The notes under the pieces are model-generated. The model ran no database searches, was not told the DNA's origin, and saw nothing but the letters and a program-made list of their open reading frames with translations. The translations under genes and the position numbers were made by a program. This document shows positions 54,893-61,579 of a stretch of 64,000 bases of DNA, one piece after another (the first letter of the stretch is position 1; the number at the start of each line of letters is the position of its first letter). Source of the stretch: Chryseobacterium formosense (GTDB taxonomy: Bacteria; Bacteroidota; Bacteroidia; Flavobacteriales; Weeksellaceae); assembly GCF_900116415.1 (NCBI RefSeq), contig NZ_FPAP01000003.1, positions 248,001 through 312,000 on the forward strand. Direction: 5' to 3'.

Positions 54893-55741
54893 ATGTATCA
54901 AGTAACTGATGAATTAAAGAAAAATGGCTTTAGCATTAATCTTGTTTCAAAAATAATCGAACGAAATAATTTTTCGAAAAAGTTTAATACAGCAGACTAT
55001 TTTTGTATTTATCTGGTCACCGAAGAATTCAATATTATAGTTGAAAACGAAAAATATGACGTTCCGCCCGGCAATGCCGTTTTTATCGGTCCACAAAAAA
55101 ACGTGGAGTTTGGAAATATTTTGGGAAAAGAAATTTATGTAATTGCATTTTCAAAAGAATTTTTCGATAAAACTTCCAAAGACAGCATATATCTCAATTC
55201 AAATATTTTTTTCAATTACAGATCTCATATTTTTGTTGCTCCTTATTTTGGAACAAATGAATACAACAAAATAATTCTTGTTGAGAGATTAAAAAGGTTT
55301 GCGGAAACAGGTAATCACAATCTTTACATTTCTGCTGCACATAATGCCATTGAAAGTTTAATTTTAGACGCCCACCTCTATATTGACCATAAGAATGATC
55401 AGAAAGAAGAACATCTTGAATCTGTAAGTTTAGTAAACCGATTTACCGTAATTCTGCAAAGAGATTACAAAACACAAAAAAAAGTTTCCTACTACGCAAG
55501 TGAATTGAGAGTTTCTGCGAGAAAACTGACAGAAATGACAGAATTCGTTTATGGGAAATCTGCAAAGCAAATGATTATTGAAAAGGTTGCATTCGAATGC
55601 GAAAAAGCAATTAAATTTTCAAAGAATACATTATCGGAGATTGCATTCGAACTTGGGTTTAATGATGAAGGAAATTTCACAAATTTTGTAAAAAAACACA
55701 CCGGCAAAAAACCATCAGATATGAGAGAAGTTGCTGTATAA
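54893..55741 (+). CDS. AraC-family transcriptional regulator
   Basis: 282 residues. The N-terminal 150 residues are a cupin-like sensor (NIIVENEKYDVPPGNAVFIGPQ). The C-terminal double HTH spans about 180-280 (VSYYASELRVSARKLTEMTEFVYGKSAKQMI ... LSEIAFELGFNDEGNFTNFVKKHTGKKPSDMRE), the standard AraC pattern. A TACATTTG -7 box lies at 54849-54856. It precedes the fibre-like operon at 56369 on the same strand, separated by 627 bp and a terminator; regulation of that operon is possible but unproven. Confidence 0.88.
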   Translation: MYQVTDELKKNGFSINLVSKIIERNNFSKKFNTADYFCIYLVTEEFNIIVENEKYDVPPGNAVFIGPQKNVEFGNILGKEIYVIAFSKEFFDKTSKDSIYLNSNIFFNYRSHIFVAPYFGTNEYNKIILVERLKRFAETGNHNLYISAAHNAIESLILDAHLYIDHKNDQKEEHLESVSLVNRFTVILQRDYKTQKKVSYYASELRVSARKLTEMTEFVYGKSAKQMIIEKVAFECEKAIKFSKNTLSEIAFELGFNDEGNFTNFVKKHTGKKPSDMREVAV

Positions 55742-55847: not shown

Positions 55848-55885
55848 ATTTTTACGTAAAAATTTATAAATTTTTACGTAAAAAT
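55848..55885. promoter_or_regulatory. 38-bp perfect palindrome
   Basis: Two identical 14-bp palindromes, TTTTTACGTAAAAA, flank TTTATAAA, and one more A/T pair extends each end, so the whole 38 bp equals its own reverse complement. It lies 24 bp upstream of the promoter of the candidate small RNA. It could be a double operator or a cruciform-forming site. Confidence 0.6.
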
Positions 55886-56139: not shown

Positions 56140-56368
56140 ATTAAACACAAATATTATTCAACAAATATCCAATTTTAACGATATTTTTACATGAAATTGG
56201 AAATTATAATTAAAAATATACTTTAATTATTCAAAACACAACACCTCACACCCATTTCTGTAAAAATTCACAAAAATTAAACACATTTTTGCAAATCCCA
56301 ATCTCTAATTGTTGTATAAATTTGCATCCGAAAAGAATAGATAAACATCTACATTAAAACTGATTGAA
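56140..56368 (+). promoter_or_regulatory. Leader and promoter region of the fibre operon
   Basis: AT-rich. A TAAATTTG -7 box at 56317-56324 lies 44 nt before the first start codon; the nearest TTTTTG upstream is 25 nt away, longer than usual. A small dyad CCAATTT...AAATTGG occurs near 56168-56200. Nothing else recognised. Confidence 0.45.
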
Positions 56369-56890
56369 ATGAAACAATTTTTATTGACAGCATTAGCTCT
56401 TGTAGCTTTTGCAACATCGAAGGCTCAACAAGTTAAGCTGAATGTAATCTTAAAGCCTATCCAGACTCTTGTAGTAAACGATGAGCAGAAAACTGTGAAT
56501 CTTGAGTACACTACTGCGAATGATTACCTGAATGGAGTTGGTAAGACCAACCAAGATCACTTAACAATTTACAGTACCGGAGGTTTTCAGGTAAAAGTAA
56601 AAGCAAACAATGCAAACATGCAACTTTCCGGGAAAACTATGGCTGTAAATACAGTAAAACTTACTGCTTCTGCAGGTTCACAAGCATTGATTAATGCCAC
56701 ATACCAGCAAGATATGGAGCTTACTGGGGGTGAAACTACTTTAGTTTCTTCTGGTAATGGTGCTGTAAACAAAAACGTTACCGTAAAATACCAAGGTGCA
56801 GGAGCTAATACATATATTGATAATTATGTACCAAACCAAAACCCTTCTACCTATACTGCTGATTTGACTTACACTATCATTAGTGCATAA
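56369..56890 (+). CDS. Small secreted fibre-subunit candidate
   Basis: 173 residues with a signal peptide (1-19, ending SKAQ). The mature part is all-beta and low in charge and has no Cys. Landmarks are KPIQTLVVNDEQKTVNLEY, FQVKVKANNANMQLSG, and a C-terminal strand STYTADLTYTIISA. The end resembles that of the larger protein at 57750 (GEYSTTLQYEITPQ), and both share FQVKV near the middle, so the two probably have a common pilin-like domain (compare spore-coat-U or DUF4402-type subunits). First gene of a four-gene operon whose second member is a PapD-like chaperone; the likely role is major subunit. Confidence 0.65.
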   Translation: MKQFLLTALALVAFATSKAQQVKLNVILKPIQTLVVNDEQKTVNLEYTTANDYLNGVGKTNQDHLTIYSTGGFQVKVKANNANMQLSGKTMAVNTVKLTASAGSQALINATYQQDMELTGGETTLVSSGNGAVNKNVTVKYQGAGANTYIDNYVPNQNPSTYTADLTYTIISA

Positions 56891-56965
56891 AAATAATTGA
56901 AAACTGATTTGATGAGGAGTGTTACAATATTATGTTGTAGCACTTTTTATCGTAAATAATTAGCT

Positions 56966-57757
56966 ATGAAAAAAGTTGCTTTGGTATTCTGCTTTTTGAT
57001 GATTCAAATCAGTGCTCAAACCGGAATTTCTGTTTCTCCGCCGAGGGTTTACTTTGATACTACTCCCGGAAGCAGCAGCACCCAAAAAGTTACAGTAACA
57101 AATGTAAGCGCCAAACATTCTCTTGATCTTGCAGTAAACTTAGGAGATTGGGAATATGACGAACGAGGTGAAAATGTAATGCATCCCGCAAATACACTCG
57201 AAAATTCGTGCGCTCAATGGATTAGTATCAATAAAGAAGACACTTATTTTACACTGGCTCCCGGAGAAAGAAAAGACATCAATGTAACACTTACCACTCC
57301 CACTCTTGAAAAAGATAAGCTTGCAGCACATACAGCCTTACTTTTTGTTAGCCAGATGAATCCGGTAGACGGAACCGATAGTAAAGGAGCAAAAATAAAA
57401 GTAAGTGTGAAATCGGGAATTAAAATATTCCATAAAAAACCGGAAACAACAGCCCGAAAAATTGAAATTCAGGATCTGAAGTTTGACACTGCTAAAAAAA
57501 TACTAAATCTTCAATTTGCAAATCACTCTGAATTGTGGACTGACGGTAAAATCAGCACAGATCTTATCAACACTACAACAGGAAAAAAAATATCAATCGA
57601 CCCGACTGTATTTTATACACTTCCGGGAGATGTCAGAAAATTAAGCATTCCGGTAAATGCTCTTGAAGAAAAAGGATCATACAATTTATCAGTCTTAATC
57701 GATTATGGTGATGATAGTGTTTTGGAAATGGCTGAACTGAATTTTAACTATGAATAA
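56966..57757 (+). CDS. PapD-like periplasmic chaperone
   Basis: 263 residues with a signal peptide (1-18, ending ISAQ). The N-terminal Ig-like domain has the chaperone opening GISVSPPRVYFDTTPGSSSTQKVTVTN, a SCAQWISI strand and FTLAPGERKDINVTLTTP, then AHTALLFVSQ near 128, the usual order of strands in PapD-type proteins. A second Ig-like domain fills the C-terminal half. It overlaps the next gene by 8 bp. The family folds and caps subunits for delivery to an outer-membrane usher. Confidence 0.75.
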   Translation: MKKVALVFCFLMIQISAQTGISVSPPRVYFDTTPGSSSTQKVTVTNVSAKHSLDLAVNLGDWEYDERGENVMHPANTLENSCAQWISINKEDTYFTLAPGERKDINVTLTTPTLEKDKLAAHTALLFVSQMNPVDGTDSKGAKIKVSVKSGIKIFHKKPETTARKIEIQDLKFDTAKKILNLQFANHSELWTDGKISTDLINTTTGKKISIDPTVFYTLPGDVRKLSIPVNALEEKGSYNLSVLIDYGDDSVLEMAELNFNYE

Positions 57758-58775
57758 ATACTGCATTCTTTTTTTCATCATCTTTAATTTTGCTTTTAAA
57801 GCTCAGGTTTCTGTAAGTTCGTGGACAAATTCGTATATGCAAATCAACAATTACAACGGAAATACTAATCCGGATTCATATACAGTGACTTTCGCAGGAA
57901 ACGGAATTTTTAATGTTTCTCACTGGAGACTTTCTGCACGTCTGCAACAAAATATAGTCTCCGAAAACGGACAATATACCATTCCGGGAAATAAAGTTTC
58001 TTTCCAGCCGGTGTCAACAACCGGGCAAGCTACTCCGGGACCAATACCTTCTATGGCACAGATCGGTGCAGTATCAAATGTTTTTTTGCAGGAAAATGTT
58101 GAAGCTTTTTTAGTTCCGCAATCCAATGCAGCCATTTACAACAATCCGTCGAGTCCGAACGGATATTACAGTTTATCATTAAAATATGCCATCACTTTAA
58201 TGGGCGGTGCATATCTCGGAACTTATCCCGCATGGACGAGATTCAACGCAACCGTAGAATTTACAGCGTATGACCAATACAATAATGTGATCGGAAGAAT
58301 ACCGCATACATTCCAGTTTCACATTGCAACGCTTTCGGGAACTCCACCCGTAACTCAGGAAATGTCTATGATATTAGATTCGAATGCATCAAACGGAACA
58401 CTTGTCTTCGATAGTATGCAGGACTACAGCAACGGAAACAGCATTACTTATTCCAATGGTCTTAAAGTAAATACCAATACTAACTTTCAGGTAAAAGTAC
58501 GATCTGTACAAAGTAATATGACTTCAACGCTGGGTTACACTCTTCCGGTATCTGCTATTCGGGTAAGATTGCAGCCGTTATCACAGGGAAATCAGACCAT
58601 TTATCCGGTTACACTTTCTACAACGAGCCAGATTTTGGCTAAAGGAAATGCTACCCAATCGACATCCTATAACTATGATTTGATCTACTACTCTGTCGCC
58701 CAGGATCCTAATCTGATTAATGCAAAACCCGGAGAATATTCTACGACTTTGCAATATGAAATTACGCCTCAATAA
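57750..58775 (+). CDS. Two-domain secreted protein, putative tip adhesin or second subunit
   Basis: 341 residues with a signal peptide (1-19, ending FKAQ). Residues 20-195 form one beta-rich domain (VSSWTNSYMQINNYNG... AYLGTYPAWTRFNATVEF). Residues 200-341 form a second domain that parallels the 173-residue subunit: NTNFQVKVRSVQSNM, then the final strand GEYSTTLQYEITPQ. A two-domain protein with a subunit-like C-terminal half is the layout of tip adhesins in chaperone-usher fibres (inference). Its start overlaps the chaperone stop by 8 bp, and the barrel gene follows after 8 bp. Confidence 0.55.
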   Translation: MNKYCILFFIIFNFAFKAQVSVSSWTNSYMQINNYNGNTNPDSYTVTFAGNGIFNVSHWRLSARLQQNIVSENGQYTIPGNKVSFQPVSTTGQATPGPIPSMAQIGAVSNVFLQENVEAFLVPQSNAAIYNNPSSPNGYYSLSLKYAITLMGGAYLGTYPAWTRFNATVEFTAYDQYNNVIGRIPHTFQFHIATLSGTPPVTQEMSMILDSNASNGTLVFDSMQDYSNGNSITYSNGLKVNTNTNFQVKVRSVQSNMTSTLGYTLPVSAIRVRLQPLSQGNQTIYPVTLSTTSQILAKGNATQSTSYNYDLIYYSVAQDPNLINAKPGEYSTTLQYEITPQ

Positions 58776-58783
58776 ATTATCTG

Positions 58784-61579
58784 ATGAGCCTTAACTGCAG
58801 AAATAAATTTCTGTTTTTTATCTTATTTGTAGTGTCTTTTATAAAAATTGGCGCACAGTTCAGTCAGTTTCCTGTAACAATGGAGATTGAAGAAGATCAT
58901 AATCCCTCAAAATCACGGCTCATCAATATTGTTATTGCGTTTCAGAATAATGGCTCTGAGACATTTACCGGAAAACTTCATACCATTTTACCTCAAGTTT
59001 ACAAAGTAATCTCAGGGACTGATATTCCAATTAATCTGCAAAAAGGAGAAAAAAAATATATTCCGATAAGACTGATTGCCGAAACCAATGCAAAAGCAGG
59101 AAGTTCGGAACTTAGGATTCAGCTGTTAAGTAATTCCGGCGTTATTCTGTCTGAAAAAATCACCACCCATACGATCGAAGTAGATAATAATCTGACCATG
59201 ACTTCATTGTCACCCATTATTTTCAGAAGTGCAGATAATGAGCCTGTTTCAGTAAAAATACGAATTGCCAACACGGGAAATATTCCTCAAAGTATAAGTT
59301 TAGTATGTAAATTTCCTGATGCAGACAAAGGAAACGTTTTCGTTGAGCAGCAAGCCAAAATTGGTGTAAAGCGAGATTCTGTGTTTACATTTACGTATCA
59401 ACCATCAAAAAGTCTTTCAGGTACAGCAAACTATGTAATCAATATTTCAGGATTTAGAAATCCGGAAAAGGAAATTTTTAATACAACCAGCATTACCGTA
59501 CAAAATATCGCCAGCAAACAGCGTTATCAGGAACCTCAATACAGCAGTATTACTGATCCTTTTAAAAATGAAATCACAACATCTTTCAGAAGAGTCGGGC
59601 AAAATCTGAATATGTATCAGATCTACGGAAACGGAGGTTTTAATCTTCCTTCCGGTTATCTTTTTTTGAGAGGAAATGCTTCCATCTTCAGCAATCAGCA
59701 GCTTCCTGTTATTACCAATACCAACATCAGTATGTTTCAGGGAAATAACGAATATCATGTAGGTTCTGTAAATAAAATGTTTGAAACAACGCTTTCCGGA
59801 AGAGGTGCAGAGTACATCCGTCATTTTGGTACCGGTAAAAAAATAGAAATCGCCTTTGTAGACCAAAATTTTAATCTGATCGAGAAAAATGCTTTTTTAA
59901 AAAACGGCTACGGATTTTTTGCAAAAGGAAGCCTGAATACGAATAATGATGATAGAAATGCATCTGCAGCCTACATTTACAGATATGACCCTTTTGAAAA
60001 AGCGAAACATCATATTTTGGGAACTGAAGGCAATTATGCTTTTAATAAAAAATGGAAGCTTAACGGGAAACTCAATACAGGATTGAGCTCATACGAAGAA
60101 CAGGATGTTCTGAAACCTTCTTTGGCGTTTGAAACCAATTATAAAGGTGCTATAGATGAATATGGCATCAATGGTAATTATTTTTACAGTTCTGCTTATT
60201 TTCCGGGGAACCGTAGAGGAAGTATGCAGATACAACAGAATATTACCAAAAATTTTGGCGATTATAATATTTTTACAAGCTTTAATTACTCTAATTTTTC
60301 TCCAAAGTTTTACTTCTTTACCCGAAGTCAGATTTCGGATAATACCAGATTTGATTTAGGTTTAAAGTTTCCCAGTGTAAAGAAGCTCAATTTTGGCTTG
60401 ATTTATCAATATCAAAACGAATCTTCAAACAGTTTCAATAATTTTTTTGGAAACTGGATGAGCGAGGAAACTAAACAGATGAGCGCACACCGATTAATAG
60501 AATCTTTAACGTGGTCCGACAATAAAACAAGACAATCTGCAGTGCTTTCTCTTGAAAACGGATTTGTGCAGTACCCGCTTCAGGATTCTCCACAGTTCCA
60601 GCTGAGATTTAATGCAAATTATAACTTCAGGAAGCTGAACTTTAATGCAATTTATCAGAAAGGAAGCTATTATCTTTCCGAGTATGCATTTACATACCGC
60701 ATCAATAAAGATGTAGAGTACAAAAAATTGGCACTTTCTCTGTTTTACAACGAACAGTTTTTAGAACGTAGACTAAGTATAAGCACCGGAGCTTCTTATG
60801 CAGATGACATCATTTACGGAAAAGCACCGTCTGCTTTTATCAATGCAAAATATAATGCGAAAAAATTCGGAGCGTTTTTCAATTCGTCGTGGTATAATTA
60901 TTCTGTAGGAAGTTTATCAAACAATATTCTGACACTGGAAATCGGAATTACGATAAACCTTAAGAAAGCCGTACTCGATCCCGGAAAAAAAGGAAAAATT
61001 CAGATTTTTACTTTCTATGACGAAAACAATAACAATATTTACGATCCTGAAGAAAAACCTGCGAATGATTATATCGTAAGCATCAATAATGTTGTGCTTA
61101 AAACGGATGCGTTGGGAACAGCATTGTACAAAGATGTTCCTTTCGGAAGTTTTGAACTCAAACAATTGATACAGCAAGGTTGGTATTATGATGAGCAGAA
61201 ACTGGATCTTGATAAATACAATTACCCACTGCAAATTCCGCTTCACCAAAACGGAACAATGACCGGAAAATTATTTCTGGATTATAATGCTGCAACATCT
61301 TTGGAATTTGATATTAAAACCTCCTCTATTTATTTTAACATCCTGAAAGACAACCGACTTATTGAGAGATTCAGTGCAGATGATGAAGGTAAATTTACAT
61401 CATTCCTTCCGACAGGAAATTATACCGTCATTATCGACGAGGCTTCTCTTCCGAACAATGTTTATTGTGAACAAAAAATCAAAGAAGTTAACATTAAAGC
61501 CGGTGAAATAACAAAAATCCCTGATTTTGTCATTAAGGTTAAAGAAAAAAGAGTTAATAAGAAAACCTTCAGCAATTAA
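58784..61579 (+). CDS. Usher-like outer-membrane barrel protein
   Basis: 931 residues with a signal peptide (about 1-24, ending KIGAQ). Two Ig-like domains occupy about 28-235 (IVIAFQNNGSETFTGKL, VKIRIANTGNIPQSISLV). Residues 245-725 are a long run of alternating amphipathic strands rich in Tyr, Phe and Asn (for example LFLRGNASIF, YAFNKKWKLNGKL, FNAIYQKGSYYLS), as in large outer-membrane barrels. Near 735-800 an Asp/Asn-rich domain follows (YDENNNNIYDPEEKPANDY), as found after the barrel in several ushers, then a final beta domain. Its place after a PapD-like chaperone and two subunits suggests an usher role; FimD identity is not visible by eye. Confidence 0.6.
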   Translation: MSLNCRNKFLFFILFVVSFIKIGAQFSQFPVTMEIEEDHNPSKSRLINIVIAFQNNGSETFTGKLHTILPQVYKVISGTDIPINLQKGEKKYIPIRLIAETNAKAGSSELRIQLLSNSGVILSEKITTHTIEVDNNLTMTSLSPIIFRSADNEPVSVKIRIANTGNIPQSISLVCKFPDADKGNVFVEQQAKIGVKRDSVFTFTYQPSKSLSGTANYVINISGFRNPEKEIFNTTSITVQNIASKQRYQEPQYSSITDPFKNEITTSFRRVGQNLNMYQIYGNGGFNLPSGYLFLRGNASIFSNQQLPVITNTNISMFQGNNEYHVGSVNKMFETTLSGRGAEYIRHFGTGKKIEIAFVDQNFNLIEKNAFLKNGYGFFAKGSLNTNNDDRNASAAYIYRYDPFEKAKHHILGTEGNYAFNKKWKLNGKLNTGLSSYEEQDVLKPSLAFETNYKGAIDEYGINGNYFYSSAYFPGNRRGSMQIQQNITKNFGDYNIFTSFNYSNFSPKFYFFTRSQISDNTRFDLGLKFPSVKKLNFGLIYQYQNESSNSFNNFFGNWMSEETKQMSAHRLIESLTWSDNKTRQSAVLSLENGFVQYPLQDSPQFQLRFNANYNFRKLNFNAIYQKGSYYLSEYAFTYRINKDVEYKKLALSLFYNEQFLERRLSISTGASYADDIIYGKAPSAFINAKYNAKKFGAFFNSSWYNYSVGSLSNNILTLEIGITINLKKAVLDPGKKGKIQIFTFYDENNNNIYDPEEKPANDYIVSINNVVLKTDALGTALYKDVPFGSFELKQLIQQGWYYDEQKLDLDKYNYPLQIPLHQNGTMTGKLFLDYNAATSLEFDIKTSSIYFNILKDNRLIERFSADDEGKFTSFLPTGNYTVIIDEASLPNNVYCEQKIKEVNIKAGEITKIPDFVIKVKEKRVNKKTFSN

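Follow-up and report, generated by a model that had tools for sequence, protein, structure and literature searches.

A predicted chaperone-usher-like operon in Chryseobacterium formosense and its relatives in the Bacteroidota

Introduction

In one strategy of fiber building, known mainly from Proteobacteria, a helper protein passes the subunits on to a pore in the outer membrane. Does the four-gene operon at positions 56369 to 61579 of a 64,000-nucleotide stretch of Chryseobacterium formosense DNA (assembly GCF_900116415.1, contig NZ_FPAP01000003.1, positions 248,001 to 312,000; the whole stretch is called the window) encode such a pathway in a member of the Bacteroidota? The original prediction, made from the letters of the window, described a small secreted subunit, a PapD-like chaperone, a two-domain secreted protein, and a large barrel protein, and proposed a divergent chaperone-usher pathway. 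We consider it highly likely that this is a complete operon working like a chaperone-usher pathway, in a branch found here in Bacteroidota, and the anatomy of its proteins suggests that it very probably builds adhesive surface fibers. The computed support consists of chaperone homology, a pilin-like subunit fold with a donor-segment pattern, homology between tip and subunit, an usher-like model of the barrel protein, and a conserved operon, and it upholds the original proposal in outline.

A second fiber route in the phylum would matter for the adhesion of many Flavobacteriales, and the operon offers a testable gene set; the barrel profile has matches in 92/148 genomes of the genus (in one, a short C-terminal stretch only). 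For Porphyromonas gingivalis, the failure to find chaperones or ushers has led to fiber assembly being called an enigma (PMC5789003, which, like the other papers cited, is drawn on here in excerpt). We found no description of a chaperone-usher system in Bacteroidota in the open-license literature, which does not show its absence from print; the excerpts of PMC4654587, PMC4793230, PMC5789003, PMC4789730, PMC9452303, and PMC12122975 report no such pathway in the phylum.

Operon layout and conservation

The open reading frame (ORF) listing of the window contains four ORFs on the + strand, of 173, 263, 341, and 931 amino acids (aa), separated by 75 bp, −8 bp (an overlap), and 8 bp, exactly the gene set and spacings first described. 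The barrel protein is present in 24/59 relatives and 1/20 genera, and its homologues form two groups, orthologues that are 42 to 59% identical to it and a paralogous group at 21 to 23%; one orthologue (G021) is in two pieces, 36 and 50% identical to the window's. Two gene orders recur. In type A, the order is subunit, chaperone, tip, usher, as in all 16 type-A loci (the window and 15 relatives); in type B, seen in 15 loci of the same comparison, it is subunits, chaperone, usher, tip. One type-B locus (L054) starts at a contig start and lacks the subunit. The type-B subunit genes stand in tandem and number 1 to 7, and a histidine kinase and a response-regulator homologue follow the tip gene in 12 of the 15 type-B loci.

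Among 77 loci from named genomes, 39 were complete type A, 32 were complete type B, and 6 were incomplete (these loci overlap in part with the 16 and 15 above, and the counts are not additive). Thus, 71 of the 77 hold one of the two complete orders, with subunit, chaperone, barrel, and tip together. Four of the incomplete loci lack genes and lie close to a contig end or on short contigs (orders caU, cUb, and Ub), and the other two consist of usher pieces only. Barrels of the 39 type-A loci are 42 to 59% identical to that of the window, with one exception (L103, 24%), and the chaperone and tip genes overlap in every one of them, by exactly 8 bp in 35. The four-gene order is kept across type-A loci more than chance would allow. 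Hosts of the 77 loci are Chryseobacterium, Flavobacterium, Kaistella, Myroides, Paenimyroides, and metagenome-assembled genomes filed as Weeksellaceae; the closest loci are from Chryseobacterium.

The genome from which the window comes carries type A, type B with five subunit genes, and a diverged third set. In its type-B locus (L003, 9585-13841), the five similar major-subunit genes lie in tandem, and such arrays vary among relatives. The third set (L173, 6711-11995) has the order subunit-chaperone-barrel-subunit; its chaperone match (E 1.3e-20) adjoins a 908-aa barrel ORF with Ig-like (immunoglobulin-like) N-terminal matches. Two orphan copies of a type-B subunit are found elsewhere in this genome (L270, 4389-4934, and L271, 4873-5418), each adjoining a similar 138- to 140-aa gene, perhaps as a duplicated block.

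Relatives of the system are spread through the phylum sample. The chaperone profile has matches in 25/395 genomes of the phylum (16/170 genera) and the usher profile in 53/395 genomes of the class (34/196 genera), many of the latter matches being confined to one end of the profile, N-terminal or C-terminal. In loci from 40 of these 53 genomes, an ORF of >800 aa was present in 40/40 and a subunit-like ORF (E<1e-3) in 35/40. A chaperone (E<1e-10) lay within 3 kb of the usher-like ORF in 29/40 loci and within <1.5 kb in only 7/40, because subunit genes often stand between the two.

The chaperone

By sequence, the 263-aa protein is a PapD-family chaperone. Its profile aligned with that of eight E. 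coli K-12 chaperones over 207 columns and both domains (probability 95.6, E 1.2e-8; reversed control, E 0.13). The alignment pairs Arg27 with FimC Arg8, Lys153 with FimC Lys112, and DYG with NDYG. Arg8 and Lys112 (mature numbering) are the anchor residues of FimC. In our alignment A9, Arg27 is R in 27/27 rows, and the Lys153 position is K in 17/27 and H in 10/27, the latter being type-B rows. A profile of 40 chaperones from these loci, with no E. coli sequence in it, found 10/10 E. coli K-12 chaperones at E<1 (0.59 to 8.5e-6), matching EcpB at E 0.001; among 184 other ORFs, it also matched 6, including the tip and the usher of the window itself.

Single-sequence searches were less telling. Pfam and NCBIfam gave no match above the curated cut-off for any of the four operon proteins. 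The searches against PapD and usher families proposed with the original prediction gave a weak PapD_N match for the window's chaperone (E 0.09) and none to the usher family PF00577. PapD_N weakly matches 7/22 family members (best E 0.0015), and one relative (L183), reached by the chaperone profile at E 7.5e-13, passes the PapD_N cut-off (28.8 bits versus 23). Profile-against-profile comparison with E. coli proteins succeeded for the chaperone only, and hhalign of the family profiles against single FimC, FimD, FimA, FimF, FimG, and FimH sequences returned nothing. Searching the PDB with the chaperone profile gave no rows; in a PDB sequence search, a weak row for La-related protein 4 was taken as chance or a common fold.

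In thirteen distant chaperones, an uncertain multiple alignment shows no counterpart of Arg8 or Lys112. Seven of them (L173, L181, L182, L184, L186, L188, and L190) carry an RY(G/A)(I/V)Q motif near the Lys112 place, maybe an alternative hold on the end of the subunit.

The subunit and the tip protein

In a structure model of the subunit, built from 38 sequences (predicted local distance difference test [pLDDT] 87.7), the first strand starts at residue 32. The original prediction had asked whether the subunit might be a complete Ig fold in no need of a donor strand; in the model, residues 1 to 31 lie in no strand, and most pilin structures align from subunit residue 26 to 32, a few from 15 to 21. 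The N-terminal segment has an alternating pattern, with positions 24, 26, and 28 hydrophobic in 38/38 sequences, positions 25 and 29 in 0/38, and position 27 in 21%.

When the model was compared with known structures by VIA-align, the top rows were the TLP-1 fibers TLP-1a and TLP-1b (Z 9.5 and 9.4), followed by the pilin domain of the CFA/I tip (CfaE type; Z 7.4, root mean square deviation [rmsd] 2.9, 114 residues aligned); the CsuA/B pilin scored Z 7.3 (rmsd 3.2, 117 aligned). Among the 50 rows listed, 38 were chaperone-usher subunits, with much redundancy among type 1 pilus entries; the other 12 comprised TLP-1, CEP192, tube and cannula proteins, a hexosaminidase, a Sulfolobus filament, a CLIPPER domain, P. 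calidifontis pili, and TasA. The modeled fold thus fits a pilin without proving it. The absence of a fold from the VIA-align listings was given no weight. A PDB search with the subunit profile gave mostly coronavirus spike rows, which we took as chance or common folds.

The 341-aa protein is a candidate tip adhesin, with an extra N-terminal domain followed by a pilin domain. By hhalign, the C-terminal domain of the type-A tip matches the subunit from its residue 32 on (probability 98.9, E 1.2e-17) and lacks the donor segment, as in FimH. The subunit profile, run on the whole genome, recovered both tip proteins (E 2.5e-13 for the window's and 1.1e-16 for the other). The rest of the tip proteins has no Pfam match above cut-off.

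The usher-like barrel protein

An AlphaFold2 model of the 931-aa protein from 35 sequences (pLDDT 80.9) places Ig-like strands at residues 31 to 250, 26 strands of at least 9 residues at 263 to 725, and beta domains at 736 to 920. The longest stretch between neighboring barrel strands is 20 residues, and no plug-sized insertion is predicted. Size and topology were the features on which the original prediction had staked the usher assignment: beside this barrel with its beta domains, the ten best Foldseek matches in the PDB were all FimD or PapC (E 1.7e-14 to 2.1e-10), albeit at low template modeling (TM) scores, and LptD (1.7e-8) and BtuB (2.2e-7) came further down, after multi-Ig proteins. 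Among 50 VIA-align rows listed, only 7lhh, 9fw9, and 9fxs extend past residue 733, and all three are ushers. The suggestion that N-terminal Ig-like domains stand in place of an obvious FimD N-domain agrees with the model and with the lack of a sequence match to the N-domain of E. coli ushers (N-terminal region versus E. coli usher profile, E 0.88, in a comparison that missed the barrel too).

The Pfam usher model PF00577 scored above cut-off in 0/296 phylum genomes and below it in 3/296, none of this family, and found the E. coli control; this may be the reason such systems have been missed. The C-terminus of the usher shows weak similarity to EcpC (E 0.0024; reversed, 0.37) and a match below cut-off to the Pfam SpaA-type prealbumin-like fold (E 0.0035). 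Weak PDB sequence rows for the same part (NOMO2 and a cell-wall anchor protein) were set aside as chance or common folds. For a possible origin of the N-terminal region from the chaperone, the match between the two is weak (E 0.001, probability 21; reversed, 0.56). The idea that the two N-terminal domains are repeats of each other was dropped because the match (E 0.021) was worse than its reversed control (0.0021).

Because the sequence family and the plug were both looked for and neither was found, we do not file the 931-aa protein as an usher of the FimD/PapC kind; in its model and its setting, it resembles ushers. Elsewhere in the phylum sample, a group of usher-like proteins (L183, L185, L187, L189, L191, and L192) gave a profile whose match to E. 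coli ushers (E 1.2e-8) takes in the plug region. Their N-terminus, read by eye, is of the FimD kind, and one of the three PF00577 matches below cut-off lies at L192. Since this group matches E. coli ushers including the plug region and the window's type does not, there may be two usher architectures in the phylum. Of nine distant usher-like ORFs scanned for further domains, one carries SPOR and one LysM above cut-off, both C-terminal (L188 and L190), with SPOR below cut-off in L184; such domains suggest peptidoglycan anchoring.

Proposed mechanism

Donor-strand exchange, tip-first order, fiber formation, adhesion, and gating are what the anatomy of the proteins leads us to propose. All four proteins would be exported by Sec. 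The chaperone would bind each incomplete subunit, supply it with a strand, and anchor the subunit C-terminus through Arg27 and Lys153. In the outer membrane, the 931-aa barrel would collect chaperone-subunit pairs, probably via its N-terminal Ig-like and C-terminal domains. The tip protein, whose pilin domain lacks a donor segment in type A, would exit first; the N-terminal segment of the next subunit (residues 20 to 31) would then displace the chaperone strand, and a linear adhesive fiber would grow outward.

We lean, with some reserve, toward regarding the system as a separate major branch of chaperone-usher pathways across Bacteroidota, whose usher has neither a plug nor a FimD-type N-domain, and in which docking of the chaperone and gating fall to the N-terminal Ig-like domains, one of which possibly closes the pore. 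If so, the usher of this branch would be an independent solution to usher activation, and an usher without a plug would offer a way to ask what gating needs.

Weighing the chaperone-usher reading against alternatives

Several results weigh against a chaperone-usher pathway. The TLP-1 fibers stand above any pilin among the structural matches of the subunit, the pilin scores (Z 6 to 7.4) fall within the range that VIA-align calls common, and at the sequence level E. coli pilins are matched (E 0.0023; reversed, 0.07) over only 35 C-terminal columns. The alignment of the type-B tip with the subunit (probability 97.9) reaches back to subunit residue 21. In type-B chaperones, His replaces the Lys112 counterpart, the 13 distant chaperones show neither basic residue in a multiple alignment of uncertain quality, the chaperone profile scores only E 0.14 against EcpB/EcpE, and no chaperone was found in 11 of the 40 usher-profile loci (one of them a 3.4-kb contig). 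For the barrel protein, the model has a predicted TM score (pTM) of 0.49, and the Foldseek usher matches have TM-scores of 0.20 to 0.28 (by query length) at an rmsd of 17 to 22, with multi-Ig proteins next (8.5e-10). In VIA-align, ushers (PapC, Z 14.9) match the barrel no better than other large barrels do (Mtr complex, 16.3; Fiu, 15.8). By sequence, the protein does not match an E. coli usher profile (E 0.05; reversed, 0.28), nor does the barrel alone (E 0.3; reversed, 0.27), and PF00577 misses it. Only the C-terminal domains, a common fold, connect the protein with the usher-like proteins of the L183/L187 group (E 1.1e-11, against 0.53 for the barrel).

The structural matches of the subunit bring up a donor-strand fiber of the TasA, archaeal thread, or TLP kind, in which subunits would self-polymerize outside the cell, the barrel would be an export pore only, and the PapD-like protein would only prevent aggregation. 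Such a fiber would explain why TLP-1a and TLP-1b come closest to the subunit and why TasA, P. calidifontis pili, and the Sulfolobus filament appear with them. It fits poorly with loci in which subunit, chaperone, barrel, and tip are kept together (71/77), with a tip that shares the pilin domain, and with the ushers that Foldseek puts first for the barrel. We know of no usher in these fiber systems, and the conserved four-gene set weakens the explanation, which we hold to be quite unlikely. In the open-license literature, we came across no paper on TLP-1. The machinery might instead secrete a short adhesive complex, one subunit and one tip that are exported and stay at the surface; the window's type-A locus does have a single subunit gene, and the fiber itself is a prediction. 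Type-B loci, with their several similar subunit genes beside the same machinery, speak for a polymer, as does a donor-segment pattern found in every one of the 38 subunits, and we give the short complex a slim chance at best.

The usual Bacteroidota route, a type V (FimA/Mfa1) pilus in which lipoprotein precursors are trimmed by a protease, has in its favor the phylum and the donor-strand, hence strand-based, polymer proposed for type V pilins too (PMC4789730). The excerpts of PMC4789730 and PMC5789003 do not report a chaperone or usher for type V pili, and neither was found for P. gingivalis (PMC5789003), whereas a chaperone and a barrel are both present here. Moreover, 35 of 38 subunit ORFs have no cysteine, the window's included, which leaves it without a lipobox, and the Pfam and NCBIfam searches of the operon proteins matched no fimbrillin family. 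A type V pilus is thus practically out of the question.

The chaperone-usher reading can also be set beside the known classes of that pathway. The classical one (type 1 pili; E. coli K-12 fimA-I-C-D-F-G-H) shares the gene set, an order nearly that of the type-B loci, a PapD-family chaperone that in type A keeps both anchor residues, a tip with a pilin domain, and, in the model, a barrel and C-terminal domains collinear with those of FimD. FimD is a 24-stranded barrel with a pore-sealing plug domain, an N-domain receiving chaperone-subunit pairs, and two C-terminal domains (PMC12122975). The protein described here differs in its 26 predicted strands, its Ig-like N-region without a sequence match to the FimD N-domain, and the absence of a plug-sized insertion, and neither this usher nor the pilins are recognizable by sequence. 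Archaic (sigma) pili such as Csu and CupE are a widely spread class (PMC4654587, PMC9452303) that occurs across a wide range of phyla (PMC9452303), and the subunit model resembles CsuA/B. Archaic pilins have invariant cysteines (PMC4654587), which most subunits here lack, and CsuC grips the subunit end by Arg89 and Tyr196, whereas counterparts of Arg8 and Lys112 are kept here. With the alternative (alpha) pili (CFA/I and ECP), the system shares its best pilin row, the weak EcpC similarity, and the EcpB match, and differs in having one chaperone gene per locus versus two in ecp. When 63 chaperones were placed in a tree, the eight classical sequences from E. coli formed a separate branch (support 100/100, length 3.01), and EcpB and EcpE grouped with the Bacteroidota chaperones; this tree is unrooted, has ten open forks, and brings long branches together.

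Features of the window

The coordinates of the operon and of nearby features are collected in Table 1. An AraC-type regulator homologue lies upstream in 15/16 type-A loci, and the regulator of the window may belong to the operon. Downstream, the genes from 61669 onward (ArsR, AHSA1, and others) appear not to be part of it.

Table 1. Features of the operon and its surroundings, in window coordinates
Feature	Position	Strand	Basis or remark
AraC-family regulator, possible operon regulator	54893..55741	+	Pfam HTH_18, E 5.1e-13; regulatory role conjectured
Perfect palindrome of 38 bp, two 19-nt arms, 100% complementary	55848..55885		Between regulator and operon; possible operator
TAAATTTG, candidate promoter element	56317..56324	+	Fits Bacteroidota −7 consensus; read from sequence
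Major fiber subunit (predicted pilin), 173 aa	56369..56890	+	No cysteine; signal peptide by eye
Predicted donor strand, subunit residues 20-31	56426..56461	+	Hydrophobic alternation pattern; in no strand of model
PapD-family periplasmic chaperone (predicted), 263 aa	56966..57757	+	
Chaperone Arg27 codon	57044..57046	+	Counterpart of FimC Arg8
Chaperone Lys153 codon	57422..57424	+	Counterpart of FimC Lys112
Two-domain tip adhesin candidate, 341 aa	57750..58775	+	
Tip C-terminal pilin domain, about residues 205-341	58362..58772	+	Homologous to subunit from its residue 32 on
Usher-like outer-membrane assembly platform (predicted), 931 aa	58784..61579	+	
Usher N-terminal Ig-like region, residues 31-250, probably two domains	58874..59533	+	Predicted strands
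Usher barrel (predicted), residues 263-725, 26 predicted strands, no domain-sized insertion	59570..60958	+	Model
Usher C-terminal beta domains, residues 736-920	60989..61543	+	Model; collinear with those of FimD and PapC

We considered an invertible promoter as a means of phase variation and dropped the idea, as none of the 21 inverted pairs in the AT-rich gap stands out. The candidate promoter element matches TAnnTTTG, which we take to be the Bacteroidota −7 consensus. The palindrome in the gap before the operon contains ATTTTTACGTAAAAAT twice.

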